Positions 1 to 59,646 of a stretch of 64,000 nucleotides of DNA are shown piece by piece. Every line of letters begins with the position of its first letter. Positions within the stretch are counted from its first letter, which is position 1. The translations under genes and the position numbers were made by a program. The notes below the pieces were generated by a model that had not been told where the DNA came from, made no database searches, and was given only the letters and a program-made list of their open reading frames with translations. Source of the DNA: Nymphaea colorata (Eukaryota > Streptophyta > Magnoliopsida > Nymphaeales > Nymphaeaceae); assembly GCF_008831285.2 (NCBI RefSeq), contig NW_022204618.1, positions 24,745-88,744 of the forward strand. The letters run 5' to 3'.

Positions 1-820
1 AGCGTGGAGGTCGGTTATCTTTGAAGTTACGTTGGATGCAGCAGAAGCCGACACGATTACCTCTTCCGTTGGAGCCTCCAGAAGTTGTTTTTAAATTTAG
101 CTCATAATTAAATTTCCGTGCTGATCGCTTGCCAAATGTTGACGTTATCGTAAAACTAGACCCACGGGAGGATGTTGGAGTGATGCTCATAGGGCGTGAT
201 GTAATAGAGGTTTTTTATCTTATTTTTCCAGTGATTTTATGAATTTAATTGCTTTCTAGATTGCCCCTGTCGAGCCGCTCCCGTGGGCAGCGCCACGAAG
301 TCCTCCTTGGATGCACTGAAGAGTTCAGGAGGCTGTCATGCGCGTAGTGCATCATTTCGGTGAATATTCTAGAATAGAGTAATCTGTACTTCCGAAGTGA
401 CTAAACTCGGTGTGAGGGTTGGCAGCATACAGTTTCGCGTATTTTACCATATCTTCCACGGTTTGATAAGGGCGGTTGGTGGCGGTGTGGTCGACGTATA
501 CTGACTCCAGTTAAATGTTGAAGGGGAAACATATGCAGTATTAAAACCGATGATGTTTTTCCTTATTTGTTGATCTTTGTTTCCTCACTATTTTTGGTGA
601 GTTATCCATGAAAAATGTCTTTATTTGAGCTGACCTTGCTGGTCTTTTTGTTGAGGGCAAGTTTTCCATCTAGAAGTTCTTCCTGGAGGAGGGTGTTCTT
701 GATCTCGTTTCTGAGTTGGTCAAGCTTGAGGAGCACTTATTTGCTCTCGGGGCGACTACTTTCTTGGCTCCGTTTATTTGCTTCTCCCTTAGTCCCCTAT
801 TTGATTACATTTATGATTAA
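1..820 (-). CDS. Class V aminotransferase (cysteine desulfurase/selenocysteine lyase fold), 3' end cut by window
   Basis: Pyridoxal-phosphate enzyme, read from about 820 down to the left edge. Seen in order: a charged N-terminal stretch; a VYVDHTATNRP motif; ANPHTEFSHFG; GSGSTGAI (the PLP phosphate-binding loop); YEHHSNILPW; and SASAASNVTSKITDL near position 1. This is the order found in class V aminotransferases that begin with a D-x-x-ATGRP motif. A 23-nt intron at 121-143 restores the frame between FYDN and HGNLIM. A 21-nt intron is possible near 371-391. Two frame changes (near 265 in GGGAGC and near 225 in an A-run) have no intron candidate. The start codon was not found; the N-terminus is uncertain. 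Family confident, substrate unknown. Confidence 0.72.
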
Positions 821-1179
821 AATTAGCCAATCAAATAAAAGCCAATAACTATTTAAAGCTACCGCATGCAAGAGGATATGAAAATGGAGAATTTTAGCGT
901 TAAAATTAAATGGTCTTTATGCTTATCATCAATTAATAGTTACTGATGCATAGGAACATTGTTTGTGTTTTATGGGGACTTTAAAATTTATCTTATTTTT
1001 ATTGTGATTCATGATTTAAATTTACAGTCAAATATTTTGAGTAAAGTCCAACAATTTTCGCATATCTAAGCAGAGAACATCCTAAAATCGAGAATAAAAA
1101 TATCCCTTCTAAAATGATTCACGTTTAATTGCATTTAATTGCATTAATAACATCATTTTTACGAAAAATCCAACAAAAA

Positions 1180-2213
1180 ATGCACTTTTACTACGAGAAG
1201 GAAAAGCCGAGCCCCAATTTAAAAATGACCAAGAAGAACAGCAAGCAAAGCCAGCTCTGCTCGACTTGCAACTTGCTGAAACGCTAGGTGAAACAACTCA
1301 AATAACTCCAGCAAAAACTAACCAAAGAAATCAAGATGATAATCAGTTATATTCCTAGATAAATAGACAACATAATTACCAAGATAAGAATGCTCGTACA
1401 TGCACAGACCAATGATAAAAGCCAAACCATTCTCAAGCCATCCAATACTCACTATAAAAAATCAACCGAACATCGAGATTCTGTAGAATCGAAAACATCA
1501 TACCAATCAAAGCTGAAAGAAGAAGACGGCATCATCAAATAATCCATCTATAAGGAACTGAAAGTGATTCGGGCCCTATAGTCAAAATAAAAGGATCTGA
1601 GACTAACCAACTAGAAACATGAAACACTTAGGAAGAGTCTCAGCAAAGAATCTATCAATTCAAACCATATCCCCAAAATGAGAAAGCTCTAATCCACCCC
1701 AAGATTGAATGAGAATTCCCCAAGGTCGCCTCCTCCCGATAATATCATCCTGAGGTGTGATACAACGGACGAAAATTAATGGATAAGCTCACCTAAATTC
1801 GGCAGGACTAATGAAGATTTCAAATTCTAAGCCAAGATAAGATACGCATCCCAGGAATCAAAGCCTAAGCAGAAACCGGACAAAGAAGGAAGGCTGGAAA
1901 TATAGAACCTAAAATGCGGAATGGACATGAGTGCTACAAAGGAGAAACTTTGAATCATCTTCCCCACGGCAATGGCACTCTCATCAACTGTTGCAGCAAA
2001 ATACCATTCAAAGTGAATCCAAAGACGCTAAAATATACAGGCGCTTTTAAGTAGGGGCAGTTTGAAGGCAAGGGGACTCTCATATGCAAGGACAATGTTA
2101 AGTTCTAAGGCTCTTTCTCGAAGGGAATGCGGCACGGAGAAGGGATCATTTACTTGTAAGGAGCAGGCGAGAAAGGATTTTGGGAGCAAGACAGACTCGT
2201 ATCATTTATTTGA
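1180..2213 (+). CDS. MORN-repeat protein
   Basis: The N-terminal 250 residues (ATG 1180) are basic and Ser/Lys-rich with no recognised domain. The C-terminus (about 1920-2213) carries at least three MORN units: YKGETLNHLPHGNGTL, YTGAFKEGQFEGKGTL and FEGSFSKGMRHGEGII. MORN proteins bind membranes or cytoskeleton, and in ciliates many are ciliary or cortical. The first frame ends in TGA at 1951. The MORN frame begins about 30 nt earlier, so there is one frame change near 1905; no GT-AG intron is visible there, so it may be an indel. Stop TGA 2211. TAA/TAG read as Glu fall at positions where MORN repeats usually have acidic residues (FKEGQF). Confidence 0.65.
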
Positions 2214-2419
2214 TTTTTATATTATCTCTGACGCAATACATCGAAGCCGTAGGCTAATTAACCCCACATCCATTTATTGTAATTCCCAACATTCAATAAT
2301 ATATACTTGTTCTTGGATTAAGTAATAAAATCTATTAGATATGAGCTTATAAGAAAATATATCAAATTCTTATATCTGAGTTGTCAAATTATAATTATCA
2401 AATATTAAGTATTGAAAGA

Positions 2420-4883
2420 ATGGAGGAATACCTCGCTGAGGGCACCCTCTAGTCATAGAGAAACAGCATCTTCTTGATGAGTGAGTTCTACAAGTTGGTC
2501 AAGGATATGAAGCAGGTCCATAAGACTCTCATTATCTATGATATCTATCAGGAGAAGTCGAAGGAACTGCTTACAATCTTCACTCGATAGCTGCTGGAGT
2601 CTTGTCACCTGGTGTTAAGATCAAAGGAGAACTTTACGTCGATCCTGATGATGAGGACAATAAGACAAGATATCATCGGGCTAACATTGAAGAAATGCTC
2701 GAAAGCAAGGCCATCCAGGGCGTCAACTATATCAAAGTCCACAGAGATTCCAAGTAGGAAGATTTCATCAACATTCGTCTCTACCATGCGGTCGTCAACG
2801 GACAATAGGTGAGAGTTGTCACGATCCCGATCTAAAAAAACTTAGTAGATAAGAAGGAAATAGAGGACATAAAGTCCAAGCTTAAAAAAATTGAAGAGTA
2901 AAACTTCAAGGTACAGAAAGGCCTTAAAGGAGATAAGCTTAAGTAATTTATCGAGAAATGTAAAAAGGAAAATGAAGCCTTGACTGACGATTATTGCAAA
3001 TAGATGGGCTAGAAACATCTCAGGATGTTCAATATAGAGGCTCTTCTCTATGTGATTCGCCAAAGGACTCAGTTTATCAGTGTCTGTGGCATTTTGCCTG
3101 CTAACTCAAAAAAAGAATACGAGCAGGAGTTAGATGGCCTGTTTGATGTACCGTAAAAAGCAGACAATTCATCATCCATACAGTTACTGCAACCACTGAA
3201 AGTAAGGTCAATGAGTTCAAATAAAAAAAAGGAGTTTCGTGCGTTTGGACGTTTGTTAATGAAAAAGTCACCAATGTCAAAAACTAATGTTTTGCTGATA
3301 AATACTACACTAATGAAATAAAAGACATTAAGACAAAGATTTATAAGAGGATGACTGAAGGAAACAACGAATTCCTCGCTAAGGTAATCGAAGATTTCGT
3401 CAAAAGCTGGACCAGCATCACCATCAATTCTGCATCTTGCATCGCTACAGTCATTAGAAAAGTATACTAAAATTTGTAATTTGGAGATGATTGAGCACCT
3501 CCTTCATCGATTCCAACGCATCGATGATGCCAGGAAGTAATAAGGACTTTAAAGATCCTGAAAAATCAGTCAATATAAGCAAAGCCTCCTCTTCCAATGA
3601 CTCAAAGCAGGCTACGGTTGTTTTACCTTTAATGAAATTTTCGCCAGATATGATGTAAAGAAAAACTAAAATCTGAGGGAAAATGAGCCTCTTGAATATT
3701 TTTTCAATTCTTAAAGGCTGAAGGACATCACAATCTAGAAAGGAGAACGTACCATCCTGAGTAGATTGAAAGTTGGCATTCCTGCACTTTTTCTACAAGA
3801 TTAATAAAGATTTTTGCTAAACTTATACCACTTAGGAAAAGAAAAACCCCTCTGATCTCTTGAGATATGTATTCAGATACCTAAAGACTGTCTACGAGTT
3901 GGTAGATGCAATCAACGGCTCTTCCCAAGAGGACTTAAAGCCAGTCAAATGCGAGAACATGCAAACATACTTCAATTTCCTTGACTTCCTTTTCCAGTCA
4001 TCAGGCCTCATCAAGTCCATCACCAACAGGCAGCTGGCTATCTGTGGTTCCTTGAAGGCTCTATTCGACCAGCTCAAGCCCAAGGACAACAAGCTTTTGA
4101 CTTACATCCTGAGCAACGAATAAAGGATAAAGGAAAACCAGCCAGTGCACTACTACGATCTTTACCTGAAGATCATCAAATAGAACAGCAAGGAGGAGAA
4201 CAAGATCTAATACATCTATGTGATGATCCACAGGTTCAAGGCGACAAAATCGCCAGCCAATACATCTACGTCAAGAAGAGAGTAGTCCAGGCCATCAAAA
4301 GCTATTCGGAAATCATCCACCAGTACGCACGCATCGCCTAAAGCAAACGAGACAAAATCAATAAACTAGATATCGAGAAAAGAATCGCACGGCTTCTGCT
4401 GGTGATTGGACTTCCTGACGAAGCAGCCAGGATCTACATGAAGAATCACCTCGTCAAGAGTGCAGAGAAATGCTTCAAGCAAATCTTGCAGAACTTGCAT
4501 GGAGATGAGAAGGCCAAAGCCTACATCGAATGCGGAAGGTACTTCGAGAGCGAATTTTCCTTCCCGAAGGCTATCGATTACTACGAGAGCGCATATGAGG
4601 CTGCGAGGACAACAGTTGTGAGGCAGGAATCGATCAAGAGGAAGATGGAAAGCTTCAGCCACATGCAGAACCCCCGCGAGGAGGACAAGCGGCAATTTTG
4701 AGATACTACAACAACCAGGGCACCGAGGAGGAGTTCTTGAACAATCCCGCCGCCAACGATCCCAACAGCAAGGAGAGCCAAAACCAATTCTCCCGCCTGA
4801 GGAACAGACTGAAATGGGACGAGGACCGAGGAACTTCAGTCATCATGGAGTAGGACTCTTTTGAGGAGGTGATGATCTCCTGA
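2420..4883 (+). CDS. Large unrecognised protein, helical C-terminus
   Basis: About 800 residues from ATG 2420 to TGA 4881. The N-terminal part is charged and helical (EFYKLVKDMKQVHKTL). A middle part contains VDPDDEDNKTRYHRANIEEML. The C-terminal third (about 4220-4700) is a helix-rich repeat-like region with GLPDEAARIYMKNHLVKSA and YFESEFSFPKAIDYYESA, which resembles TPR-type or vesicle-tether helical bundles. One 20-nt intron (3476-3495, A15) clearly joins two frames. Other frame changes (near 2612, 3190, 3610, 4215, 4700) are unresolved, so the exact protein is uncertain. I could not assign a family; an exocyst/Exo84-like helical protein is a weak possibility. Confidence 0.5.
3476..3495 (+). 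other. 20-nt intron
   Basis: GTAATTTGGAGATGATTGAG. Removing it joins KVYENF to TSFIDSNASMM and removes an in-frame TGA. Adenine at position 15. Confidence 0.7.
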
Positions 4884-5012
4884 TAGTTGCAATGATTGTA
4901 TCCTTGAGCAAGGCCACGCTATTTAAAGACTTATCCATCCTTTCTACTTTTCCGAGAGTAGTCTGCTATTCTAATTTTGAATGACGGTAGTAGCGCATCC
5001 ACAATCTTTATT

Positions 5013-6239: not shown

Positions 6240-6906
6240 TCAGAAAGAGGAGGCCATTTGGGGCTTGTTCATTTGCATACTGTAGAAATAATTCCAGAGA
6301 AGGAATTGGTCGGCAGGAATATACACGATTGATGTTCCAGCAGGAACTGCAGGGCAACTACTCGATTGGTATGCATTAATTGCCTTCTGTTCATTATTAT
6401 TGCTTGCGTTTTAGGTGTGGCTGCTTGCATTTTCCACGCAAGGTTTACCCATCAGATTATTATTCTTCTACTATTCTTCCCAACTCTCATCCCCGTTCCC
6501 GTTCCCCTTCCTCCACTTCTACCCACTATTCGTCATCCCCTTTCCCTCCTCTTCCATTCTCTTCTGCGTTTTCTTGATGGTGGAAATGGCGGCCAACCTG
6601 ACTAGACGCATCTTTACTTGGATCCCTGCTTGAGCATGGGGTGCGTGAATTTGCTGCTTGAATGGGATTTCAGTTTCCTGAAGCCGTAGAGGTTGAGTTG
6701 GCGCACGAAGCTCTCGTACTTGGTCTGTCTGAAATGGACGGGCAAAATTGATTGTTCCATTGCCAGGGGGTCCAGGATCTCAATGACTGTATTTTTGTCA
6801 GACCAGCAGATGACCGAGCTGAAGGCGGCGTCCTGGGTAGGATAAGGAGTACATCGAGGATTTGTTGGAGTTTGGCTGCAAAATTTCTGCATTTGGATTA
6901 TTTCAT
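6240..6906 (-). CDS. Heat-shock-factor-type transcription factor
   Basis: 208 residues after removing two 20-nt introns (6833-6852 and 6598-6617); the coding length is then exactly divisible by three. Residues 8-105 form an HSF DNA-binding domain: KLQQILDDAA, VICWSDKNTVIEI, ILPVHFRQTKYESFVRQLNLYGFRK, HPMLKQGSKL. The invariant F-V-R-Q-L-N-x-Y-G-F-R-K recognition helix is intact. It is followed by a short basic segment and an Asn/Ser/Glu-rich tail. There is no clear hydrophobic-repeat trimerisation domain, so the protein is much shorter than typical HSF1. Nuclear, sequence-specific DNA binding is inferred from the family. Start chosen because the first helix begins 8 residues after ATG 6906. 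Confidence 0.9.
6598..6617 (-). other. 20-nt intron in HSF gene
   Basis: GTAAAGATGCGTCTAGTCAG (minus strand). It splits the GSK/LAAIST junction; A at position 15. Confidence 0.85.
6833..6852 (-). other. 20-nt intron in HSF gene
   Basis: GTACTCCTTATCCTACCCAG (minus strand). It splits the HSF domain between ILD and DAAFSSV; A at position 15. Confidence 0.9.
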
Positions 6907-8261: not shown

Positions 8262-8613
8262 GATTATTTAGTTAGAGCCTCCTCACGCACCCCCACTAAT
8301 ACCCCTCCCCTAACCTACCGTCCCTCCCAAAATCCTCCCTCTACTTTATCCTGCGGGGCCACTTATAATAATTATTAGAATGATGTTTGAGTTGTGCACA
8401 GCAACTAACAGCGAGGTTTCGCTGCAATCGACTCACGCATTCATTCTCAAGAAATCCCCGCCGCCCCTCAGCGCCTCCCGTAGCAACACCCCCGCCCCCC
8501 TCGATGTTGAGTATCTGATGCATTATCTCTAATAGGTCGCACATTCAAGTCCCCGCTTTCAACCATGATCGCAAACATTATACGCCAGCCTTCACCCACT
8601 AGAATGGACTGGT

Positions 8614-9100
8614 ATGCCAATCTCCACTCAGGACGATATCGCACACCATGACCAGCACTACAGGGATGCCTTTTTGAACAAAACCCAGCAGGAGTGTCTC
8701 CACAGCTCCCTCCTCGTAAGGCTAGCATAACCCAGCTCCAGCCGAAGCCAACTTCCAGCTACTGTTTCGTCTGCAAATAGCATTACGCAGACTACTTCAA
8801 GGTATCCCTCTCCGCAACGCAGCACATAAACCACCCCATCCACAAGAAGAACGTGGCCTCTTCCTCCTGCGAGGACATAATCCAAGAGTTGATCGAGAAC
8901 GAGAGAAAGAAGCGTAAGGTTCCCTCGACTGGTCTCAAGTAATTCCGAGAGCTCCCGCGCAAGGCCAGGAAGTAGGTATTGTGCTATGCAGGCTCTCGCA
9001 GATGATGACCCACGAAAGCATCTCTCTGCACTACCTCAAGGAGGCCAGCACGTGCGTCTCCAATTTTCAACCTCTCAAGATCAGGTCCCAAAGGAAATGA
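8614..9100 (+). CDS. DBF4-type zinc finger protein
   Basis: 148 residues after removing two 20-nt introns (8716-8735, 8972-8991); length checks as a multiple of three. Residues 40-75 hold the DBF4-type finger: YCFVCKEHYADYFKVSL..TEHINHPIHK followed by CEDIIQELIE, i.e. C-x2-C...H-x5-H plus the acidic helix. Dbf4/ASK activates the Cdc7 kinase at replication origins. This protein is far shorter than Dbf4 and shows no BRCT-like part, though upstream exons are possible because the frame stays open before ATG 8614. A KKRKV-type basic nuclear signal follows the finger. Function as a Cdc7 regulator is tentative. Confidence 0.7.
8716..8735 (+). other. 20-nt intron
   Basis: GTAAGGCTAGCATAACCCAG; joins HSSLL to LQPKP just before the zinc finger. 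A at position 15. Confidence 0.85.
8972..8991 (+). other. 20-nt intron
   Basis: GTAGGTATTGTGCTATGCAG; joins ELPRKARK to LSQMMTHES. Without it the frame stops at once. A at position 15. Confidence 0.85.
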
Positions 9101-9283: not shown

Positions 9284-9929
9284 ATGGGATCGTAGCCGCC
9301 GAAGCCGAAGGAGCCCGAGAAGACCTTGAAGGGTATTTCCGCCCCTATTGTAGAACAGGTGCAATAATATACCAAGGAGATCAGCAAAATGAGGAGGGAG
9401 TTTCAACGCGAGTGCATGAAACTGGAAATGAACGATAAGAAAATGCAAAAAGATCTCAAAAAATTACTCAATGGCAATAACCCCAATGTACACAGCAGGC
9501 CACTCAGGTGAATAAGCGCAACCTCGCTCAAAATATCCTCAAGAACCAGGGCTTTATCAAAAAATACAAGAACTTAGATGCGCAATTGCAGAACACTCTG
9601 TTCGAGTAGGTTCCTTCCGATTCAGGTTGCAATCGATGGTGACGATGGACCAGATGGCCAACGTGATGAGCGGCATGGCCAAGATAATGGGCAGCGCCAA
9701 GAACAAGATCAACATCGAGCAGTTCCAAAACTCCATGAAGACCTACTCCACCGAGAAGGAACGCATGCAGCTCATGAACGAGATGATCCAGGACTCCATG
9801 GAGATGGCCGAGGACGAAGTCGATGACACCGACGTCGACAACCTCATCGCCGGCATGGAGACCGAAATCAAGAATAAAAAGAATCGCCAGGTGGAGGCTG
9901 AGATGGAGGCAGAGGACGAACAGCTCTGA
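9284..9929 (+). CDS. ESCRT-III subunit, Vps2/CHMP2-like
   Basis: 201 residues after two 20-nt introns (9488-9507, 9606-9625). The N-terminus is short and basic (PKPKEPEKTLKGI), followed by the long ESCRT-III helices (VEQVQEYTKEISKMRREF, MVTMDQMANVMSGMAKIMG), and a very acidic C-terminal half (DEVDDTDVDNLIAGME). The order, length and charge switch from basic to acidic are those of Vps2/CHMP2. These proteins polymerise on membranes for multivesicular-body sorting, cytokinesis and membrane repair. The C-terminal MIM motif is not clear. Start chosen at the ATG just before the basic segment; introns verify the frame. Confidence 0.85.
9488..9507 (+). other. 20-nt intron
   Basis: GTACACAGCAGGCCACTCAG; joins NGNNPN to VNKRNLAQN. 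A at position 15. Confidence 0.88.
9606..9625 (+). other. 20-nt intron
   Basis: GTAGGTTCCTTCCGATTCAG; joins NTLFE to LQSMVTM. A at position 15. Confidence 0.88.
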
Positions 9930-12900: not shown

Positions 12901-14190
12901 TTATCCTCCAGCAGTTCGTTATTTTTGGTCAAGCCGGTGGAATCTCTTCCCATTTATGCCAGTTTAAGCTCGTATTCTCCAGTTTTCGCCTGCATATCTG
13001 CCAGTTCCTTGGCATACTGTTCGTTTCTTTTGGCGAGCCGATTTCTCTCGTCTGTAAGTTGCTTTTCCTTTTAGCGAATGCTCAACCTAAGAGTTTTTTC
13101 CCTTTCCTAAAAGTCAGTGACTATATCGTTTTTCTCGAATATCATCTGTTGCTTTTCGTTCTCAGAAGCTGCTAATTTCTATGTTAGATTTTTTATCTGC
13201 TCCTTGTAGGAACTTTACTTGTATTCGAATCTCTTTTGGATGTTTTCGCTCGATTGCACGGAATCTTCGTATTTTTATTTGAATATCTTCAGCTGTCCTT
13301 ACGCTTACTTCAGTCCTCGTTACAATATGTCCTTCTTTGAGCTTGCGCTTTTCAGCTCCATGGCTGCTTGCTCATACTTTTTCTGGACTGTTTTTAGCTA
13401 TTTTTCCAGTTCACTCAGTTTTACCTTGGAAGTGTAGTCGTTACTGGGACTATTAGTGGTATACTAGCGTTCGCTTTTCTCGTCGGCTTTCCTCTTGGCG
13501 AAGCTGGATTGTTCCATTTCAAACTGATACTGTTTTTTCGAGCTTTATGCCTTTGACCTTTGAAGCTATTCAAACTTATCAGTGCTTTTCTTGAGATCAG
13601 AGCCTCCATGCGAGCCTTTAGGTGAGGTGAAGCCACTCGTTGCGCCTTAGAAAGTCTTTTGGCGACTTTTCTGTCCGAAATTGGGATGGCTTTTCGCGTA
13701 ATCGTCTCCTAAAGGTAGATCCGTGATGTGTTCTGTGCTCTGGACGAACTCTATTTCATTAAGGATTTGATAAGTGATACTGGTTTCGATAAAGGCATTT
13801 TTATCTGGGCATTTCTAGATGTTGAGAGTGAGTCTATTACTGCCTTTTTTGAGCATGTTGGTATGTATTGATGCTGTTCCTGCGGGGATCCTTCCACTGG
13901 AGGTGGTCAGAAAGATGCCGACCGAGATCTAAATTACTCATCCTCTACCTTCTTCTCTGAAAATGCGTTTCGGAGGGTATCGAAATAGAGACTGAACCGA
14001 TGCGCTGCTGAAAGCTAGAGGTATGCTTATCCCACTCGTAGCGGAACTTCAGTCCCGAAAGGTACTTCTTCGTTCTCTATATGACGCAATGGCTACCAAC
14101 CTTGAGGACGGCCAAAAGGGAACAGGGGAACCTGACTTGCAGTTTCACCCTATGGATGAGAACGTTGAGATTGATCTAGACGTGTCGCAT
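9975..14190 (-). CDS. Giant coiled-coil protein with N-terminal NT-C2 domain
   Basis: About 1400 residues. Residues 1-180 look like an NT-C2 (EEIG1/EHBP1 N-terminal) domain: VEINLNVLIHRVKLQV, KYLSGLKFRYEWDKHTSSF, GTASIHTNMLKKGSNRLTLNI, ITYQILNEIEF. The rest is almost continuous heptad-repeat coiled coil rich in Glu, Lys, Gln and Leu, where the reassigned TAA/TAG codons are very frequent, consistent with Glu. TGA 9975 ends it. Proteins of this build anchor to basal bodies, cell cortex or membranes; ciliary location is inference. At least two frame changes (about 13950 in the C2 domain and 11735 in the coil) were not resolved to introns. It faces the ESCRT-III gene tail to tail, 45 nt apart. 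Confidence 0.75.
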
Positions 14191-19264: not shown

Positions 19265-20216
19265 ATGGAACGGTGGATTGGCTTTGTAAAGGAACATCCC
19301 AAGACCTCCATATCAATCGCTGCCGCTACACTCATTGTTTCGTTAATGCGTAAATACCACTACAAGTTGGTGGTTAATCCAGGTACAATTTATTGTATTA
19401 AGATGTCGGCGGAAGGCACAACAATCAAAACCAATAAGGTTTTCGCCATCCTAGTTAGCAAGGATTGGCATCATAGGACATTGAAATCGTTACAGAAGGT
19501 AGTCACACCTTGAGAGGCTGGTATATCAAGCACCCAAATCCTTCCCAAATCATCATTTATTTTCACTAAAATGCAGGAAGTAACAATTTCCTTATCAAGA
19601 TATCGGTGGACGGCTCTTCTACATAAAGTCATTCCTATAAAATTCCGATTCCAACATATTGCTGGTTGCTTATAGTGGTTTTTCTTAGAGTGATGGAAAT
19701 TCTAAGCCAAATGAGTCTCAAATCATGAAGGATGCAGCAGCTATACTCAGGAGGGGAATTTAGATCTCAAAGAATTAAAATTTGCCTCTTTTTGTTTTCG
19801 GAAGAAGCTTAGGAGGAGCTGCAGCTGTTCACGTCCTTTCCAGACCGTAATTCAAGCATGCAGCTAAGGGATTGATCTTGGAAAACACCTTTACCAGCGT
19901 GTATGATGTTGCTTCAAACATTGTCCCTAGTGTCTTGTTTCCACTGAAATTCTTCCTTTGGGCCTCCACTTCCAATAGTTATCAACAATCACAAATGAAG
20001 GACCTCCATACTCCAGTGCTGTTCATAAAGGGGCGAAGAGATCAAATCGTGCCGACGAAGTTGATGGACCAACTATAACAGGAATGCATTAAATACAAAT
20101 TGGAGCATTACTCTTTTTAGGTTCCTAATGGAACTCATAACGAAACTTGGTACCAAGGAGGAAAGCAATATTTCGGCATTTTCAACGAATTCCTTAGCCG
20201 TTACTCAAAGCTATGA
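19265..20216 (+). CDS. BEM46/ABHD13-family alpha/beta hydrolase
   Basis: 303 residues after two 20-nt introns (19439-19458 and 19580-19599), length exactly divisible by three. N-terminal membrane anchor (SISIAAATLIVSLM, residues 14-30). Oxyanion region YFHENAGNIGGRL, in which the E is a TAA codon. Nucleophile elbow FGRSLGGAAAVHV (Ser), LILENTFTS, acid GRRDQIVP (Asp) and catalytic His in PNGTHNETW. All three members of the Ser-Asp-His triad are therefore present. BEM46 proteins are membrane-anchored hydrolases of the ER/plasma membrane with an unclear substrate. Intact. Confidence 0.92.
19439..19458 (+). other. 20-nt intron
   Basis: GTTTTCGCCATCCTAGTTAG; joins TIKTNK to QGLASEDIEIV. The only clearly supported intron starting GTT. 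A at position 15. Confidence 0.85.
19580..19599 (+). other. 20-nt intron
   Basis: GTAACAATTTCCTTATCAAG; splicing creates the family motif ENAGNIGGRL. A at position 15. Confidence 0.93.
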
Positions 20217-35286: not shown

Positions 35287-35552
35287 TCACTTCTTGAAAG
35301 CCGCCTAGAGGAAACTGACTAGCTCTTCAAACACGTATTTTTGGCGGTCGTTTGCTTTCTACTTCAGTATCAATGCGTCGAGTGTTAGGGATTATGTTTC
35401 AGGTGCGAACTGGAAAGCTATGCGAACTGATAATTCCGTCTCGCGGTGGTAGGCATCCACTTAAAATTTCTACATGTCTTTTTATTTACATTTGGAGATG
35501 TTTATTCGGCTTATTAGAAATAGGAACGAATACTGCTAGGTTTTGGCAACAT
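35287..35552 (-). CDS. Small protein, 81 residues, unrecognised
   Basis: ATG 35552 to TGA 35287; removal of one 20-nt intron (35470-35489) leaves exactly 82 codons. Sequence features: MLPKPSSIRSYFEEAEETS, VDAYHRETELSVRIAFQF, DALILKEKANDRQKYVFEEL. Helical and charged, soluble. No family recognised. Confidence 0.6.
35470..35489 (-). other. 20-nt intron
   Basis: GTAAATAAAAAGACATGTAG (minus strand). A at position 15; restores a full-length frame. Confidence 0.65.
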
Positions 35553-35566: not shown

Positions 35567-38164
35567 TCAACTGTATGACTTCACGTATGTTCCTTGCTCT
35601 TTCCGGCAGAGAGTAGGGCTTGGGCGATAGAAATCGAAGAATTTGACGATAAGGAAGGGAGGAAAAGGTTGGTTGTGAAGGTGACTGTATTTTTGCTAAA
35701 TATTGGACTTTTACTCGTAGGAGAGCTAGAGGATGGCTCTTTCCTTGAGAAATGGGGGTTATTGTTGGTGACTGTGACGACTATTTTCTCCTGCTACTGG
35801 GGTTGGATGCAGAAGACGTACTTATTGTCTATTTGGTAGTCAAGAGTGGATAGGTAGGAATGGGGCAAGTTGTAGTCTATTTTCAAGTTTTAAACCTGCT
35901 TTTATGAGTGTTGGTGAAATGGAGGATAAACTTTAGGCTCTGCTATGAGACTATTTCGGTGATGATTCCCACCTCAACTTCGTTGTCCTTCAAGAGAATG
36001 TCTTTCTTCTTGAGTCCGCACCTGCAAAGCCTGATGAAAAGCTCCTTGTTGTTTGGTCTGAGTTCCAGATACAGATCCTCGTAGTTGTTGAACCTCAGTC
36101 TTTTATCGTTGGAAAATACTTGCACTTCATTGTTGGATGTTTTTCCGGGGGATTGCATTTGCATGGTGCGGCTCTTGACGAACTGTTCACTGCGATTGTT
36201 GTTCACTTCGTCTTTGCGCTATCCTATTTCCTTCAGTTTTCCCTGATAGCGTTTCAGCTACTATCTCAAGCCGAGAGTTTCGATCTCTTTCAAGTCTAGA
36301 GACTTCCTCAACTACAATTGCTTTTGCTTCAGTGTTTATTCTCGTTCTAAAGGTTTTAGTTTGCCTTCGTAAGTGCGGAGAGTCGTTGATCATGCTTATT
36401 GCGTTAGTTGATTAGTTCCGATTTATAGAGGCCGGCTAGTCAGAATAGTTTTGGATTTGTTTTTAGGATTTGCGTAATTACGCTTTGGCTCGCTATATGG
36501 CGCTATCTTTCTCTTTGATTGTGGCCTCAAGAGCAGTCAGCTACTTTTAGAAACTGGTGCGGCAGACTTCAACTGGGAAAGCTTCTCATTTTATATCTAA
36601 AGTTTCTTCACCTTTGTGAGAAGCTGGTTGCGTTAGGACTCCAAATCACGCTCTCTTGCAGTACTGTAGTTATAGGCTGAAAGCTCCTACTACAGGTTGG
36701 CCACCTTTGCTCTTAATCTTTCGTTTTCTTTCTACAGTTCCTTCTCGAACGCTCCGCGATCTTGCTGTCCTCGCTTGACTTCGCTTTTGATCAACAGAAT
36801 CCTGCTCTCGTAGTCCTCGATCAGCTTTGCCTTTTACTTGTCAGCGTTGGACTTTATAATGACCAACTCATTGGACTTTTGCTCCAACTAGACAAGGAGT
36901 GAGTTTATTTTGGTCTTGTATTCGAACTATTGCCTCTTGAGCAGTTCCTCAGGCCGCTCTGCTTCGCTGTGGAGCGATTGGTTGACTTTGCTCGGCTCTG
37001 CTTCTGGTTGGCGTTGTTGGGGGTGCGTGTTTTGGCGAATTTGCTATATTTTTGGTCGATGCTGATATCCTCCTGCTGGAAGTTTTCGATCTCCACATCT
37101 TCCGAAATGCACCTCTGCAAAAATTACTCATAGTTGATGAGACTGCTGTTCAAGAAACCGAAATTGATTAGATATCCCTCGATCCACTTCTTCTCCTCCT
37201 TGGTGAGACTCTTCCTGGCGCTGTCCAGCTCGTACATTTCCTGCACCTTTTTGTTGATTTCTCGCAGATCCCCCATCTTTCTGCCCTTCTACGTTCTGAG
37301 ACTGTTCAGGTAGCTCATCAGTTCGCTGATTTTATTCAATCCTCTAGTCTAGCCGGTATACTATTCCACTACTCCTTGCCGTGGTTGCTCGTTCACTTGC
37401 TTCTATTTTCAATTTGAAAGCTTTTGTTATGACCTTATATGCTTGCTCTCGATGATGTTCGATTATCTCCAGACTGCGACTGTTGCACTTACGATGGGAT
37501 TCCGGAGTAGGCTGAGTCGTAAGAGTCAGTGAAAAACTCCATCTTGTACATATTCTTGAATCTCTTTAAGACTAAGCATACTTTTAGGTGTCGGATTGCT
37601 TGTAATAGTGGAAGGAAGTGGGGAATTTGACTCCTCTATCCACTAGATTTTGGTAAGCCTGGCTATATGCTTTCCTGACCGTTGGAGTCCAAGGGGATCC
37701 ACCGAGCCCAGTGGTACAAAGATTCCAAGCTGAGGATCAAGAATGTCGATCCAAATGTGTCGATTTGCTTTTTATCATCCTCACTTGGCGCTTTCAAATA
37801 GGCTTCATCACTATAAGCTTACAGGGATGGTCATGAAAGTAAGTTTAGCCCCTGTCGGGGTCTGAGGAGGTGAGCTCGTGCGAGCATATCTTGGTCAGCT
37901 GGGGGATCAGCTTCTCGACTCGCTTCACCACGTCCTACTGTCCGAGCACCATGATGTCTCTGACGAACTGCGTGCAAGTTGATTTACTCGTAGCGCCAAT
38001 ACCTTGGTGACGATTTTTTCGTTTTTATCGGCGAGGATGATTTCGACCTAGCGCAGTACCACGTCTAGCGTTCCTTCATCTCCGTTTTATATTTCGTTCT
38101 TGAAGGTGACTGCGCGTTTGTAAGCACTGAAATCTTCCAAGGCCTTGCGAAATTCCCACTGCAT
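35567..38164 (-). CDS. Coiled-coil protein with N-terminal VHS/ENTH-like domain
   Basis: Starts MQWEFRKALEDFSAYKRAVTF at 38164. Residues 1-190 look like the VHS/ENTH-type helical solenoid of ciliate coiled-coil proteins (DEGTLDVVLREVEIILADKNEKIVTK, FVRDIMVLGQEDVVKRVEKLIPQLTKICSH, FLILSLESLYHWARWIP). They are followed by Ser/Glu-rich linkers, a central coiled coil (about 36200-37100) and a C-terminal domain LRFNNYEDLYLELRPNNKELFIRLCRCGLKKKD. A TGA at 35883 ends the clear frame; a further open stretch (NLPHSYLSTLDYQIDNKYVFCIQ) down to TGA 35567 may be its tail after a 19-nt intron or a separate gene. Several frame changes in the N-terminal domain (37960, 37830) unresolved. Probably a membrane- or cytoskeleton-linked scaffold. 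Confidence 0.6.
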
Positions 38165-38477: not shown

Positions 38478-39703
38478 TCAATTGCTTGATGAAGATAGCC
38501 ATTTCATCTGCTGTATCTACCTGGCTGTTGGTCTTTCCGAAGGCTTTACCTTCAGGATCCTCTTTACGAAGTCCATAAACTATTGGTCTTTGGTTTTTTT
38601 GAATTCTAATTTTCCCCTATTGACCAGTCTTTCCAGTTAGTTGTAGGTTTCTGCCTTAAAGGGATGCCTTCCCTCTGCTAGTGCATAGACCACCACTCCA
38701 TATGACCACACATCAGCCTGCTCTCCTTCATACTATTTTCTGCTAATCACTTCGGGGGCCATATAATTGGGAGTTCCGCAAATAACGGTCAATTTTTGAT
38801 TCTTATGGGCTATGTAAAGGAAAAATTACTTAGCAGCTGAATCCGAAGTCGATCAGTTTCACTTTGTCCTGATGGATGAGCACGTTTTGCAGTTTTATAT
38901 CCTGTGAACGATGTTGCGATCGTGGATATAGATGAGGGCCTCGAGTAGTTGCGCTGAAATGTCTCTCACTTTGGTGAGAGAGAGTGGGTAATTGTGTTTA
39001 ACGTATTCAAGGAGAGACTAGTAGCCTGCAAACTCGACAACCAAGCTAATTTTGGTCAAAGTTTCCACGCTTTCGTACATCTTCAGGACTGAATCATGGC
39101 GAAGGTGCTGCATGATGTTGATCTCCTTTCTGATGTTCTTGAACTTGTGGGGATCCTTGTTCATCTTGAACTTCTCATACACTTTTATTGCAACTAACTA
39201 CTCCACTGCTTCCTATTCATGACTCTATGCCTATTCTACGTTTGGTTGGTCTTCCTGTTTCTATTCCGTGCTTTATTGGTTTGCCTCGATGAGTGATTCT
39301 TCCTTCCTTAGCATCAAAGCATTGTTATTCTATGCTTCAGATCCTTCGATGGGTTTGCCGACGCTTTCCTCCAATTCTCTCTCTTTGAGAGGAGAGGGCG
39401 ACCGTTATGCTGGCTTTTTCTGTATCCTTTTAGCTAGAAACACAGTACTGAAACTTCCCTTTCCCAGCTATTTATGATTTGGTATTTGTTCAGGTAGTTG
39501 TTATTATCCTCATGGTTGAAGACGTTCTGTCTCTTGAAGCTCAGGCTTGTCCTGCCGAAGGACGAGGAAGGGGATTCGGGCTTGAAGAAAGTGCGTCGCA
39601 TGGTGCTGTTGTCGCCCTGGTCGATGGAGGAGAGACGGTTTCTCGCTGGCCCTGTGTAGAAGCTAGTGGCGGTGCTACTCATTTTCTTATCTCTGGCCTT
39701 CAT
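38478..39703 (-). CDS. CAMK/SNF1-like serine/threonine protein kinase
   Basis: N-terminal Ser-rich extension (MKARDKKMSSTATSFYTG, possibly longer upstream), then a kinase domain: glycine loop LGKGSFSTV, a long acidic insert, VAIKVYEKF (catalytic Lys), IRKEINIM (alpha-C Glu), HR-DIKLQNVLI (catalytic loop; one base missing at the D), IDFGFSC (DFG), CGTPNYMAPEV, ADVWSYGVVVYAL and the C-terminal RPTAREIQQMKWL, where E is a TAG codon. TGA 38478. One 20-nt intron at 38810-38829 follows DFG. The 90-residue acidic insert between the glycine loop and the catalytic Lys is unusual. Confidence 0.85.
38810..38829 (-). other. 20-nt intron in kinase gene
   Basis: GTAATTTTTCCTTTACATAG (minus strand), just after the DFG motif. 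A at position 15. One further base is needed to restore frame exactly. Confidence 0.7.
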
Positions 39704-41060: not shown

Positions 41061-44000
41061 ATGTATGGCCAACCTCAGGGTCCCGGTCGATTCCCGAGCC
41101 AGGCCCACCAGCAGCAGCAATACCAAGGCTATCCCGGCCAGCAAATGGGGCAACCGCAATACCGGCAACCCAACTACCAGGGTAACATGAATCCGCATGG
41201 ACAGGGCTACATGGGCCAGCCCTAGGCCATGCAAAACCCACAGCGAGGCAGTCACGCGAGCAACTACCAGAACGCAGGCAAGAACGCGGCCCTAATGCAA
41301 CCGCCGGCGCTGAATGCTGAAGAACCGATGGATACGAATTCCCAGTTTTTCCACCAGAGGGGACCGATGACGATGAGCAACAACCAGCACTCGGAGTTCG
41401 ACACCTACCACCAGCAGGAGGAGGATCCGATGTGGACGCAGGAGGCGCAGATCGCCAGCATGTTCTGGGAGCAGCGCTGCATGACCATGCTGGAAAGATT
41501 CTAATGGTTCTACGAGCGGTTCCAGATCCTGAGGAACGACCATTTGACCCTCAGCGAGGAGATGCAGAAGATGGACTCGGAGGAGGAGTGGCATATCTTC
41601 CAGCAGCACCACGAGGAGTTCCACGAAAAGTAAGTTTCTACCTATCTGCAGGATCGACGAAATGTAGCAGGAGCTCTCTGCAGTTTTGGGATAGAACGAG
41701 CAGCTCCTCCAGCAGAGACGCACGCAGGACAGCGAAGGAGTGTGGGAACAGCGCTACCAAGAGCTTCTCGGCAAGTAAGGAACGCTTAACCTAGTTTTAA
41801 GTCCCTCCAGGAGGAAATGGCGCACATGGAGTCCAGCGGCGGAGGGGAGGAGTCCCGCCTGAGCAATACCGCCAGTTGGAGGAGCACTGCGCCGAGCTGG
41901 AGTACCAATACGAGCAGGCCTTCAACGAGTTGAAGATGCACAGGGAGGGCGGGCTCACCGCCGAGATCGAGAACCAGATGCACGCCTACATGGAGGAAAT
42001 CGAGTCGCAGAAGGAAAAGCTGCACACCCTCCACAGCGAAAACGTGGAACTGCAGAAGATGCTCGAGGACTTCGAGGCCGAGAACGACCAGCTCAAGCAG
42101 GAGAAGTACCGGAGCGGAGTCGACCGCAACAAGTTCGAGGACTCATCAGGCAAGTGGAACTGAAGGAGCAGGAAATCCACTCTCTTCAGGAAGAGTTCAA
42201 GACGCGAGCGGCCCCCCAAGCCAATACGTCCCACTACGAGCGGACCATCCAATAGAAAAACCAATAGATCGAATAGCTGAGGCGGCAGCTCAACGACAAG
42301 AACAGCCAGATAAGCGAAATCACTCTCTCCAATAGCAAGCTGGAGCAACTAGAAAGTAGCACGCGAGCCAAGGCCAAAAACGATCTGGAGCAGGAACGCA
42401 AAAACCAAGAGAAGAAAATAGCAGAATACGAGCAAAAGATTACGGAACTCAAGAATGAACTTCAAAGCAACGACCAATCCTCCAAGATCGATAATCTGTA
42501 GAAGAAACTCTCATACTCCAGCCAAGAAGTTGCCAATCTCAACGACACACTCAAGAAAAAGAATCAAGAACTCATAGAGCTCAGAAGCCTCACCTATGAG
42601 ATCGACAAGTTGAAAGAAACGCAAGCCGACCTGCTCAGGCCGCAGACGAAAGGACAGGCTTGCCGAATCCCTCAGGAAGAAGGGGGCGGAGTGGCGCAGA
42701 TGCACCAGGAGATCGAAAAACTAACTGGCCTTATCAACGAGCAGAACAGCAAAAGACAGGAATACAGCACTCGCAACCTTCGCTCGTAGATCGAAGATTT
42801 GACCGACCAGCTGAGGAGGAGCGAGGGATAGGCCAACAGGGTAAGAGCATTGTCTCTCTAAAGGAAGAGTATGTGGCTAAGCTTTAGTAGGATCTAAGGC
42901 AAACTCGATAAAAACTGATAGTGGTGGAGCAGCTGCTGGAATCAGAGCGCGAAAGCTGGCATGAGAAGGAGGTGAGACTCAGCGCCAAATCCCACGACTA
43001 CAGCGACCGCATCCGAGCCTTGGACTACGAATTTAACCTGCAGATGAAGGACACCCTTGAGCGAGAAGTGAGCACGCTTCGAAAGCAAAACGCTGAGAGG
43101 CAGGAAGCCATCCGAGCATTATAGGAAAAGTAGCTGATCCTCTCTTCCCAGCTGTCCGTATACCAGAAGCAGGAAAACAACTACAACAAGGATCTATCCC
43201 TCCAGAAAGAGAAGGAAAAGTCACTGCAATCCACCATCGAATCGCAAGCCAAACGATACAAGGAACTAGAGCTGAGTCTCAAGAGGAAAGAAGAGGAAAT
43301 TTCCCTAAGCCAGCAAAGGATCAAAGATGCCGTCGAGGAATCATCCTCACTAAGACTGCAAATCGACGAGCATGAGAAGCTGATTAAGACCAAGAGCAAG
43401 GCCATTAGGGAGCTTCAGGAGCAGCTCAAGCTCAGCATGCGAGGGAAGGGGAAGCTGATAAGCTGGCCATCGAAAATGCGCGTCTCCAGATGACCATTTA
43501 ATCCTTGGAGCGCGAAAGAGCTCAAGAAGAGTCTCCGCTTGCCAAGAGCAAGGGACTGTCGGTCAACAAGAGCAAGAAGCAGCTGGAGTCCCAGTAGAAC
43601 ATGATCGCCGAGCTGTGGAAGGAAAACTAGTACCTAAAGGAGGAAATCGCTAAAATCCTAAATAAAACCGCTGAAAATACCACCTACACTGGCAAGGACA
43701 GCAGCAAGCTTGTCCCGCTGGACCTGAATAAACGCTTAAACGAATTCAACAAAAGACTGCAACTCACCATCTCCAACCCGGGAGGACAGCTATCGAGAAC
43801 TGAGTCCAGAAGACCATCGTCTTGTGGGAAAAGGAGCGGAGCCAGCTCATCAGCCACTACTAGAGCTAAATTAACTCTCTAAAGCAGCAGCTGGAGAGCA
43901 AGAGAATGGGAGGATCGCAGATCAGCAACAGTGATCTTGCGAACAGCAAAAAATTGTTCATTGGCGGTCTTGAGTCAGAGGCTCTCAGGGAGGAAATCAA

Positions 44001-47836: not shown

Positions 47837-48951
<1,115 letters not shown>

Positions 48952-50335: not shown

Positions 50336-52149
50336 ATGCAGGAATATTAGGTTCATTTAATCCCACCCCCCGAAAGCGAGGTCAAGAAGCACTAAAAAAG
50401 GAAAAGAGAGCACAGGAGGCACCGCGCGTCAAGAGGTTTAAAAACTAAATTACCCCCAAGAAGAGGACAGAAAACAAACCCGCAAACCAGCCAGAAGAAA
50501 AAGCGAAAAGCTCTTCCAGCGTTCCCGCTACCTCCTCACCGAAGACCCAGGAGAAGTCGTTTCTCGCACAGCAAGTTCCTCACCCTGGAGAAAATGTCCT
50601 GTCTTCTCACTCTGCTAATCTTCTTTTTGAGTTGCACGAAGACCGAGCTGGACGTTCAGGCCTACGACAGCAACTCTTTGTCGTCGCGTACTATAATGTA
50701 TGTAATTTCGGCGTGCACTTTCGGTTTGGGTACTTTTCGCTTCATTTAGTCCTGGTGATAATCATGCGCTACATCGCCTGCTTTGAATTTGAGTTCGACC
50801 AAAACAAGGTCTACCTGAAGAAATACTCCAAGCAGTCGTGGACCTACCTCTTCTTCACCAAGTCCGAAAAGCCAAATACCTGCTCCTTTAAATTTTGTTC
50901 GTTATTCCGCATCCGATGCCTCTACTGCAGGGAAAAACTTTCTCACTTTTTCAGACCTACGACGAAGTGTATATAAATCACTCCTACAATGACATCTTGG
51001 CTCTGTTCCTGGTTGCCAAAATCTACATCATTGTACGTGCTCTCATCAATCTTTCAACATTCTCATCGCCGAGGGCTGCTCGGCTCTGCTATCAAAACGG
51101 ATTCGAACATAACCTCCTCTACGTCCTCAAGTGCATCCTGAACGAAAGCCCCCTCACCGCCATCGCTGTGAACTTCGTCGGCCTCCTCATGGTCTTCGGC
51201 TATGCTCTCAAGCTGTCTTAGGGCGTCCTCTTTCTCTACAATCCCGGGTTGACCACTGGCTTCGAAGACTATGCCAATTGCTTCTGGTGTGCCTTCATCA
51301 CTATGGCTACTGTGGGTTATGGAGATTATACCCAAGACTCTGCCTGGCAGAAGCATCATCCTGATCACTGCCATCAGCGGAGTCTTGCTAAGCTCGCTCC
51401 TGATCGTCTCGCTGAGTCTCTACCTGGAGATGATTCCCAGTTAGTCGAAATCTCACATAACTTTGACTCGGCTGGGAGAGCAGAAGGATCTGGCGGAGGA
51501 GGCAGCAAAGGCTCTCTCTTAGACAGTCAAGATCCAGCACTCATGAGCCAGTCTGACTACGACGACGAAAAGATGCGCCACAGGTTTGAGAAGCTGAAGA
51601 TTGAGATCGACGCCACTAAGACCCGATCGAGGAAGATCAAGTCTCTTGTGGATTCGGATAACATAATAGAGGAAATGAACCGATGCTTCTACATCCTGAA
51701 GGACAACCTCAAGGACATCTTCCTGGGCAGCTGAAGCTCAGGGAGGAAATCGGCCACATCGACTAGATTCAGTCCATAAAGCTGAGCTTCATCAGGGAGG
51801 TCGAGGAAATGCTCTCCAAGGCTTCCTTGTCTCGCAAGAGCTCGCTCTAAGGGGAATAAAGCGACCCCAACCAGGACCTGGACTGTAGCCGACCGTCAAT
51901 CCCACCAACATGTCGATCGACCAGCAGGCCTTAATCAACCCTCCCTCGCTTGACTCCAAGCAGAACTCACGATCCAATTCCAAATCCAATTCCAAGCAGG
52001 ACTCCAAGCTGAATTCCGAATCGGAGATTATCTCCAATCCCTCATCCAACTGCATACCGAGTAGGCCAGGATCCCGTAAAAGTAGTCATCAGGCAAGCAA
52101 CAGCAAATCCCAGAGAAGCAATACTTGCAAGTTCCGCCAAAGAATATAG
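50336..52149 (+). CDS. SK-type (calmodulin-gated) potassium channel
   Basis: Basic N-terminal tail (RKRKREHRRHRASRG region), then membrane helices: FLTLEKMSCLLTLLIFFLS; TIMYVISACTFGLVLVIIM (joined by a 20-nt intron at 50730-50749); YLLLEILFVIPHPMPLL; DILALFLVAKIYIIVRAL (S4 with little charge, as in SK channels); PLTAIAVNFVGLLMVFGYAL; pore CFWCAFITMATVGYGD; and S6 ILITAISGVLLSSLLIVSLSL. A helical segment follows (DKYDDEKMRHRF-type, RHRFEKLKIEIDATKTRSRK) where SK channels bind calmodulin, then a Ser/Asn-rich tail (SRSNSKSNSKQDSKLNS). Selectivity filter TVGYGD intact. Frame breaks near 50860, 51330 and 51530 are unresolved, as is the exact stop. Confidence 0.82.
50730..50749 (+). other. 20-nt intron in K+ channel gene
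   Basis: GTACTTTTCGCTTCATTTAG; joins SACTFGL to VLVIIMRY within a membrane helix. A at position 15. Confidence 0.88.
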
Positions 52150-54758: not shown

Positions 54759-54785
54759 ATACAGTATTATTATAATCACGGCAGA

Positions 54786-57665: not shown

Positions 57666-57760
57666 TAACTTATTTCATTATTCACCAATAACTGATAAAT
57701 CATATCATTTTTTGAAGTTTTTTCTCAATTGAAACAGTAAGGAAGTCAGTTAAGTAGACC

Positions 57761-58684
57761 TCAGGGCCTCTCTTCTATAATCTAAATTAAACAATGCTTA
57801 CCCGAGAGCATTTTGTCATTAATAACGACTTATTTTACATCGTCGTTGAACTGTCGGTTTCGTGCTTATTCTAAATGATCTTCTAATCTGCTTATCTCTC
57901 TTTCTCTCTCAGGCAGCTTTGTTACGCTCTCTGGTCCTTTGTATCTGCTCAAGACTGATCCGATCTGTTTGAACAACTTGGTCGATCTTTTTTAAGGGAA
58001 AATAATTCGTTGTTTTCTTATCTTCTTCATGACCTTCGACACAAACTGTTTGTACTGTCTTTATTCTTCCTACTCTGGAGCTGATATATACGGTTAAGGC
58101 TTTTCTTTGATGAGCTATGCATACCGACTCAAATCGATAGAATCTTCAGGCTATTCCTTTTCTTTTTTGGTTTAGGGAAGCTCTTAGAGGAATTCCTAAT
58201 GTCTGGAGTCCTCTGCGAACTCATCAGTGATGCCGTATCTTTAGATGATATCCTAATCCCTGTCCCATTAGTTGTGTTTCTGTTTGCCTTAGGATTAGTC
58301 TTCTAAGGAAGAGATATAGTTGTAGGTTTTGACGGCCAGTTCCTCTGTGATTTTGAAGTTGAGGAAGGTGGGATCCATGCTGATGTATGCTGTGATCTTC
58401 TTCCAGTCTGGTCCGAACCGTTTGAGATAGTGTTTGGCTCTGTAGGTGAGGACCAGCATATCGTCCAGATCGAGTCCTGAACTAAGCACGCTTTTTGCAT
58501 TTTCCTACTGCATGCTCGAGTCCCCTCTTTCTAGTTGCTTTTCTTCGGCCATGAATAGTTTCTTGCCCTTGGAGGGTAGCTTCACAAACTTTCCCGAGCA
58601 GTCAAGGCCACTGGGTTAGTTTGTCTGAAGTTACTTTTTAATTCTTCTGAGGGATTTATCAGGGGACAGCTGGTAGTTAAACAT
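57761..58684 (-). CDS. Acidic helical protein, 307 residues, unrecognised
   Basis: Clean intronless frame from ATG 58684 (MFNYQLSPDKSLRRIKK) to TGA 57761. Residues 85-135: a helical domain LDLDDMLVLTYRAKHYLKRF..DWKKITAYISMDPTFLNFKI that might be a SANT/Myb-like fold. The rest is Glu-rich with many reassigned codons (KEKEEPEDSIDLSRYAEL; QFVSKVMKKIRKQR). Possible nuclear protein; family not recognised. Confidence 0.65.
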
Positions 58685-58915
58685 GGACTGGTTTGCCACC
58701 TATTTTCAACATCATTTGGGAAGGATGCATTAATTGCTCACATTTACAAATGTTTAGTTTTATATTCATGCCTACTTTTAGGACAATAAAGCACAATGAA
58801 CGTAGATTGCCTTCTATTGCTTTTTGGATGGAAGGTAAGCTTCATTTTAATTGTGACGTTTATTTTATGGTTAAATGCTAATTGATAATAGGTGATGTTG
58901 TATTGTTGCGGATCA

Positions 58916-59646
58916 TCATTTGATGGGAGTGGATGGCTGGTTTACTCCTGCCCACTTGTCGTACACTTTCTTGCCGTCCACGATCTCGAAGAAGCTTAAT
59001 TAAACGTTAATTACGGGTCGCGCAGAAGACCAGCATCGTGAAGATAGGTGAACTCGGGAGTTTTCCAGTTATCGTAAGTTTCGAAGTCTGGGGTGTCCTC
59101 CTCATCGGGGTAGTTGAGGGGAGGAGGGCGCTGGTATTTGAGGCCGTCTCCGTCGACCATCTGATGGTAAACAACTTCGAAAAACACCAGTCCGTAGGGC
59201 ACCATGGCAGCGAACACCCAAATCCAGAGGAGGCCTTTCTTCCTGAAGTGCTGCGAGTGGAAGGTTTCCGGCTGGAAGTCCAGATCCTCGCTCTCGTAGT
59301 CCCACTCGTGGGCGATGTCGTCCCAGAGGACCTGGCTGTGAGGCTCCAGGAGATTGGTTTCGGCGACGCTGAGGGTGGGCCCGCTGCCGATGTAGTTGAC
59401 GGTGAGGTCCTTGGGATTGTAGTTGGGATCGAAGGAGGGGAAGATGGGATCGGGGTGGGCCTCGAAAGGCTGTGCGTATTCGTATGGGTTGGGCGTTCCG
59501 AGAGCTCGTGGGTCTTGCTCGAAATAGGGATTCAGGGCGTGGTCGTCCCTCCAATCGAAAGGTTTGGGGTGGTGCGCACCGCTGAAGGCGAACCGGGGGG
59601 TTTTTAGCGCAAACGAAAGTCCTCTTTTTCCGAGTATTTTGAGCAT
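58916..59646 (-). CDS. Mitochondrial single-pass membrane protein, possible complex I subunit
   Basis: 236 residues after a 20-nt intron (58995-59014); coding length then exact. Mitochondrial targeting-like N-terminus MLKILGKRGLSFALKTPRF. Then an Asp/Pro/Tyr-rich soluble part (FDWRDDHALNPYFEQDPRAL; NPYEYAQPFEAHPDPIFPSF), one membrane helix (LLWIWVFAAMVPYGLVFFEV, about residue 150) and a short C-terminal domain ending WAGVNQPSTPIK. Size, single helix and PY/DP-rich head recall NDUFB8-type accessory subunits of respiratory complex I, but identity is weak. High third-position G/C suggests strong expression. Confidence 0.65.
58995..59014 (-). other. 20-nt intron
   Basis: GTAATTAACGTTTAATTAAG (minus). 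Joins AGLLRDP to FFEIVDGKK. A at position 15. Confidence 0.92.

Follow-up and report, generated by a model that had tools for sequence, protein, structure and literature searches.

The sequence analysed here is a window of 64,000 nucleotides (nt), or 64 kilobases (kb), from the Nymphaea colorata assembly GCF_008831285.2, contig NW_022204618.1 (C120:24745-88744). Its genes, among them a PKA-like kinase, a Rab6-like gene, a gene with an HSF-type DNA-binding domain and a CHMP2-like gene, are interrupted by very short GT-AG segments. The initial annotation listed 19 of these as introns with an adenine at position 15 from the 5' splice site (A15). The window closes with a telomere, (GGGGTT)18 at 63892..64000 (+), read as a macronuclear chromosome end, and carries a transfer RNA (tRNA) with a UUA anticodon at 25666..25737 (+), UAA being read as sense. 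Reading frames become long when UAA and UAG are sense and UGA is stop. This tRNA and the in-frame UAA/UAG codons together mark a ciliate nuclear code.

Protein homology fixes 13 introns in total, 11 in the window and 2 on contig C34 of the same assembly. All 13 have the GT..AG ends of spliceosomal introns, and removing each one restores a conserved protein. The PKA-like gene holds four of them, and its junctions were scored as ungapped when no gap lay within 8 residues, among the covering homologues out of 120 listed. The 20-nt intron at 48802..48821 (-), GTAAAACCTCGCTAAATAAG, lies in the glycine loop and has A15; its junction is ungapped in 118/118 homologues, and the Pfam kinase pieces fall in two frames. 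A second 20-nt intron with A15, at 48627..48646 (-), leaves an ungapped junction in 119/119. The other two are 21 nt long and have A15 without A16. Left in, the intron at 48484..48504 (-), GTATTTCTCAAAAGATTTTAG, adds a 7-residue insert relative to the PKA chain, and once it is removed 118 of 119 homologues align ungapped; the intron at 48036..48056 (-), GTAAAAATCCACTTATCTAAG, gives an ungapped junction in 119/119.

The remaining homology-fixed introns come from other genes of the window and from C34. A 20-nt intron with A15 at 38810..38829 (-) interrupts a kinase activation loop, where positions 122-148 and 149-263 of the Pfam Pkinase profile flank it in two frames. The Rab6-like gene contains a 22-nt intron at 33803..33824 (-), GTACGCTTCCCATATGACCCAG, with A14 and A17 and no A15, across which the spliced protein aligns to Rab6. 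The same alignment places a 20-nt intron with A15 at 33629..33648 (-) and a 21-nt intron with both A15 and A16 at 33500..33520 (-), GTATTATTTGGGCTAATATAG. A predicted 21-nt intron at 33686-33706 was rejected, the unspliced stretch aligning to Rab6 without a gap. The HSF-type gene aligns ungapped across its 20-nt intron at 6833..6852 (-), and the CHMP2-like gene carries two 20-nt introns, one at 9488..9507 (+) with a one-residue gap adjoining the junction and one at 9606..9625 (+) across which the CHMP2a alignment is ungapped; all three have A15. On C34, the IFT70 gene contains a 22-nt intron (C34:10656-10677; ungapped in 115/115 homologues) and a 20-nt intron (C34:11000-11019; ungapped in 111/120), both with A15.

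Collectively, eight of the 13 introns are 20 nt long, three are 21 nt and two are 22 nt (seven, three and one among the 11 in the window). Thus 20 nt is the mode and not the sole length. A15 occurs in 12 of the 13, that is in 8/8 at 20 nt, 3/3 at 21 nt and 1/2 at 22 nt. These counts carry some selection: six of the eight 20-nt introns came from the initial list, C34:11000-11019 was spotted by eye with the pattern already in mind, and C34:10656 was one of three predictions compared with the PDB, all of which had A15. Those three, in IFT70, an OST3-like gene and a USP14-like gene, were drawn from eleven predictions of lengths other than 20 nt that were read in protein context. The PDB gave no match for the OST3-like query but did for the USP14-like gene, whose intron (C34:14717; 22 nt, A15) lies in a poorly aligned stretch and was not counted as fixed. 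Four window introns that the initial list had missed, 33803 (22 nt), 33629 (20 nt), 33500 (21 nt) and 48484 (21 nt), have A15 in three cases, 33803 lacking it.

The initial list itself largely holds on re-reading of the sequence. Its lengths are right, with 16 segments of 20 nt and one each of 21, 22 and 23 nt; all 19 end in AG, and 17 start with GTA, one with GTC and one with GTT. Eighteen of the coordinates are correct, and the 22-nt segment lies at 41630-41651, not at 41640-41661, which is 10 too high. All 19 segments do have A15, against a chance level of 102/359 among GTN16AG 20-mers of the window, although the claimed invariance fails at 33803-33824. Placement by homology or reading frame had been claimed for the whole list. 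Homology fixes 7 of the 19 (6833, 9488 within one residue, 9606, 38810, 48036, 48627 and 48802), and no independent support turned up for 121-143.

The pattern recurs when a gene finder takes no account of position 15. In the window, six of its settings predict 20-nt introns with A15 in 10/11, 11/12, 12/13, 12/14, 12/16 and 8/9 cases. Outside the window, an earlier stage gave 32 predicted 20-nt introns, 27 with A15 and 30 starting with GTA; that run included contigs C19 and C22, which yielded no 20-nt prediction. When the prediction was widened to 183 kb of other contigs, A15 was present in 35 of the resulting 44 GT-AG introns of 20 nt. In the decoy control over the same contigs, 47 dinucleotide pairs give A15 in 292/895 calls, and the largest pair makes 34 calls, below the 44 of GT-AG. 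Pooling the window with the other contigs (C23 being represented by its first 10 kb) gives 57 predicted 20-nt introns, 47 of them with GTA, and 44 of these 47 have A15. A15 is therefore near-invariant in the 20-nt class, but not present in every intron. C19 and C22 were excluded from the pooled counts, the decoy control and the length-by-position scan described below; C40 (3% coding) contributes only a row to the context and A15 count, and pieces of C36 and C121 enter no count.

The excess of GTA donors provides a rough estimate of true introns at each length: about 46 at 20 nt, 5 at 19, 2 at 21, 5 at 22, 6 at 23 and 6 at 32. The excess is about zero at 15-18 nt, so the 15/16-nt lengths typical of heterotrichs are not found here. 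At 23 nt there are eleven GTA calls. A15 occurs in one of them and an A followed by five bases in two, and because so few show either feature, the 23-nt calls are perhaps mostly false. The gene-finder histogram also overstates the 20-nt share, since a 21-nt intron leaves the frame intact and usually escapes prediction.

A model-free scan of every GTA..AG pair in 247 kb, covering lengths 16-30 and positions 8 upward, gives the same answer. Adenine is in excess at length 20, position 15 (161/325, z 8.8), and the next GTA cell reaches z 2.9. Outside the window, A15 occurs in 119/244 pairs of length 20 and in 685/2187 pairs of nine other lengths (p 1e-8); the corresponding counts for the window alone are 42/81 and 218/735 (p 2.4e-5). 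GTC, GTG and GTT donors show no adenine excess at length 20, position 15 in the 247 kb. For lengths of 21 and 22 nt the count likewise detects no surplus of A15, and 21-22-nt introns should therefore be a minority over the examined contigs. Little or no A15 excess appears on C19 and C22 (26/66) or at loci of large contigs (14/40). The 20-nt introns also show the context Y13 N14 A15 Y16, with a pyrimidine at position 13 in 35/44, and have T17 in 31/44. This Y13/T17 context resembles a degenerate branch site.

The host looks like an oligohymenophorean-type ciliate, judging from a tree of one gene. In this tree of IFT70 from C34, the organism clusters with Paramecium, Tetrahymena, Ichthyophthirius and Pseudocohnilembus (support 97/88), Platyophrya falls just outside the cluster, and none of the rows is labelled heterotrich or karyorelict. 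Named matches of the window's PKA include Paramecium octaurelia (65%) and P. bursaria (61%), and the highest-scoring named match is labelled Ixodes (51%). The ciliate contigs are 22-89 kb long, several bear telomeres, and the window's telomere unit also occurs on other contigs of the assembly, which totals 407.8 Mb in 783 contigs. These small contigs probably accompany those of another eukaryote, because contig C10 measures 24.9 Mb and all listed matches to U2 lie on C1 to C13. As side observations on the telomere, its pattern matches 20 loci in IMG/VR, and an internal (CCAACC)12 repeat at 49543-49616 resembles the telomere unit at a distance from the chromosome end. The telomere-bearing C19 and C22 have low coding density (26% and 31%) and zero predicted 20-nt introns with A15; they possibly represent another chromosome type or another organism.

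The segments are thus very probably GT-AG spliceosomal introns of an Oligohymenophorea-type ciliate, with a very narrow length range, a sharp 20-nt mode and A15 as the most likely branch adenosine. The DNA demonstrates the pattern, its excess over controls and the protein-level joining of exons at 13 introns. Mechanistically, A15 sits in a degenerate Y-N-A-Y context and would act as the branch adenosine, and a 20-nt intron branched there would form a 15-nt lariat loop with a 5-nt tail. Such scant room would lead the spliceosome to accept few geometries, and GTA, A15 and AG, not an extended consensus, would carry the splice signal. Moreover, a retained 20-nt intron would shift the frame, which fits the selection against introns of length 3n described for Paramecium (PMC11334263). 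This selection is not absolute here, because the three homology-fixed 21-nt introns keep the frame.

Several observations weigh against this interpretation. Splicing of the segments, branching at A15 and control of the length by sterics or selection are all inferred from DNA. The intron at 33803-33824 is the lone exception to A15 among the 13 homology-fixed introns, and five of these 13 are not 20 nt long, which points to a loose length lock and makes the term quantised, used initially for the lengths, too strong. The five calls without A15 among the 32 outside the window may be errors or exceptions, and single-base frame errors contaminate the coding-potential calls, making some predicted introns false. 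In a control donor set, position 19 of length 21, a cell unrelated to the pattern, rises to z 3.9. Additionally, none of the 24 matches listed in the U2 search, in which 46 of 21948 candidates were scored, falls on the small ciliate contigs.

Frame evidence has limits of its own, and they feed a competing account. Unconstrained gene finding with GT-AG ends gives a length peak at 20 nt in the window, but decoy dinucleotides perform equally and the result was dropped as evidence: at 20 nt, GT-AG restores the frame at 17 loci versus a mean of 20.8 per decoy dinucleotide pair. Frame-shift junctions comprise 29 of the one-lost-base class versus 4 of the opposite class, at least 3 of the 29 being listed introns, and reading frame alone is weak evidence, since an apparent loss of one base looks the same as a segment of length 3n+2. 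Homology reveals such slips in a kinase HRD motif near 38.9 kb (38870-38960, -) and in the PKA-like gene near 48.2 kb (48180-48300, -), beside a pair of Gs; they are most likely long-read assembly errors, with correction at the RNA level a possible alternative. The common deletion-class shifts and the equal performance of decoys would suit the idea that segments were chosen to mend deletion-broken frames and that the set in which A15 caught attention was biased. The homology-fixed junctions drop 20, 21 or 22 nt without a residue gap in nearly all homologues, however, and A15 recurs outside the window with position 15 unused, alongside the model-free excess. This account is most improbable and already refuted for the class taken together, though it may hold for an individual segment, 121-143 for example. 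A further alternative holds that the segments are internal eliminated sequences removed from DNA, or are bypassed in translation, instead of being spliced from RNA. Ciliates do eliminate DNA, and the present analysis rests on DNA; yet the contig, ending in a telomere repeat, looks macronuclear, and spliceosomal introns are characterised by GT..AG ends together with a fixed internal A, which makes elimination or bypass most improbable.

The position of the adenine could be set from either splice site, and introns of other lengths bear on the choice. A trait of heterotrich type, an A followed by five bases that moves with length, is seen here at 20 nt and is mixed at 21-22 nt. Setting the branch adenosine from the 3' end, with A15 following from the common 20-nt length, is a serious possibility that falls short of being probable. 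It matches Stentor, where A10 in 15-nt introns becomes A11 in 16-nt introns (PMC9505925), and the A17 of the 22-nt 33803-33824. Predictions with coding support also include three 21-nt introns with A16 and not A15 (7984 and 10013 in the left part of C120, and C34:501), and A14 occurs in 4/6 predictions of 19 nt. Against it, three of the five homology-fixed introns of 21-22 nt, the 21-nt 48484 and 48036 and the 22-nt C34:10656, have A15 only, none of them placing an A before five final bases, and the 22-nt 41630, which has coding support only, behaves likewise. The other coding-supported cases divide, with A15 only in C34:14717 (22 nt) and 9333 (21 nt), A15 and A17 in C32:40333 (22 nt), and neither in C35:6869 (22 nt); the homology-fixed 33500 has A15 together with A16. 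The homology-fixed cases suggest a 5' ruler, yet not a rule: the fixed spacing from the 5' site first proposed is favoured by the three introns with A15 only and broken by A17 at 33803. It is conceivable, if rather unlikely, that an oligohymenophorean evolved narrow-length introns independently of heterotrichs, with a spliceosome that locates the branch point by its distance from the 5' splice site and not from the 3' end. Such measurement would mean 14 nt between G1 and A15, with extra bases tolerated mainly in the tail.

Short introns of narrow length are known elsewhere. Stentor coeruleus, a heterotrich, has 15/16-nt introns, and its main class of 15 nt places A10 before five final bases (8005/8806 introns; PMC9505925). 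It shares with the present introns very narrow lengths, GT-AG ends and, in the main class, a near-invariant A followed by five bases. Unlike Stentor, whose 16-nt introns keep the 3' distance, the present organism has a 20-nt mode with A15 and groups with Oligohymenophorea in the one-gene tree, which agrees with the initial view of a distinct solution. Paramecium, which the IFT70 tree places in the same class of ciliates, also has tiny introns with GTA/TAG splice sites, but over a broad length range in contrast to the sharp 20-nt mode here: more than 95% fall at 20-34 nt (PMC11334263), the mode is 25 (PMC5014332), and the median in P. bursaria is 24 (PMC12862383). The karyorelict Loxodes magnus has comparably ultra-short introns (mean 19.3 nt), although its mode of 17 comes with spread and its UGA is also read as W (PMC11441545). 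Mikrocytids, with 16/17-nt introns (16 nt in 217/224), and chlorarachniophyte nucleomorphs, with 18-21 nt (PMC10245619), match in narrow range but are reduced parasite or nucleomorph genomes. In Euplotes and Oxytricha, a conserved A near the 3' end, a likely branch site in the authors' reading, is a shared feature, whereas these are spirotrich introns for which the accessible part of PMC10946202 gives no 20-nt mode.

A literature search, with most subscription papers and all bioRxiv preprints outside its reach, found no ciliate intron class of 20 nt with A15. Narrow-length introns being known in heterotrichs, mikrocytids and nucleomorphs, the 20-nt/A15 geometry looks like a new variant. A second length-locked mode in what appears to be another ciliate class suggests that length constraint evolved repeatedly and that the preferred intron geometry would differ between spliceosomes. 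Comparing loops of 10 and 15 nt, together with the question of a 5' or 3' ruler, would make a structural limit of the spliceosome testable.

Nine further segments of the initial list fit a domain or coding frame, with inexact boundaries; all have A15, and all but the 22-nt one are 20 nt long. The intron at 6598..6617 (-) lies downstream of the domain in the HSF-type gene and is called by the gene finder, the HSF alignment ending before it. Those at 8716..8735 (+) and 8972..8991 (+) are called by the gene finder blind to position 15, and those at 41775..41794 (+) and 58995..59014 (-) by the gene finder as well. An alpha/beta hydrolase gene, whose query gave no PDB match, contains 19439..19458 (+), GTTTTCGCCATCCTAGTTAG, with a GTT donor, an open spliced frame and a Hydrolase_4 domain downstream, and 19580..19599 (+), with the spliced frame FHQNAG|NIGGR and Hydrolase_4 directly downstream. 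Strong coding segments flank the 22-nt intron at 41630..41651 (+), GTAAGTTTCTACCTATCTGCAG, on both sides, and the gene finder calls it. In an ion-channel gene, 50730..50749 (+) leaves an open spliced frame with an Ion_trans domain downstream, although one gene-finder run favoured a 26-nt version at 50724-50749.

Three listed segments are candidates, all with A15. Reading frame supports the 20-nt segments at 3476..3495 (+), which 4/6 gene-finder settings also call, and 35470..35489 (-). The 23-nt segment at 121..143 (-), with a GTC donor, is absent from the gene-finder predictions. The gene finder also predicts new 20-nt introns with A15 at 8612..8631 (+), 13929..13948 (-), 14077..14096 (-), 37562..37581 (-), 37803..37822 (-) and 37968..37987 (-). 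The one at 14077 appears in 4/6 settings, with another run favouring a 24-nt form (14077-14100), and other runs picked a 32-nt version at 37803 and a 35-nt version at 37968. No 20-nt GTA..AG pair occurs in the Suv3 region, 22100-25350 (-), where the frame also changes.

The window and the other contigs also contain two gene classes by codon usage, with third-position GC of 0.76 and 0.51; UAA is rare in the former, at 4 per 1000 versus 21 in the latter. Finally, a very long open frame of 1020 amino acids spans 54603-57665 (+) and includes a stretch of 628 amino acids free of UAA and UAG (55734-57620). Its product matches the Giardia variant-specific surface protein family under the Pfam cut-off (17.9 bits) and is perhaps a cysteine-rich surface protein.

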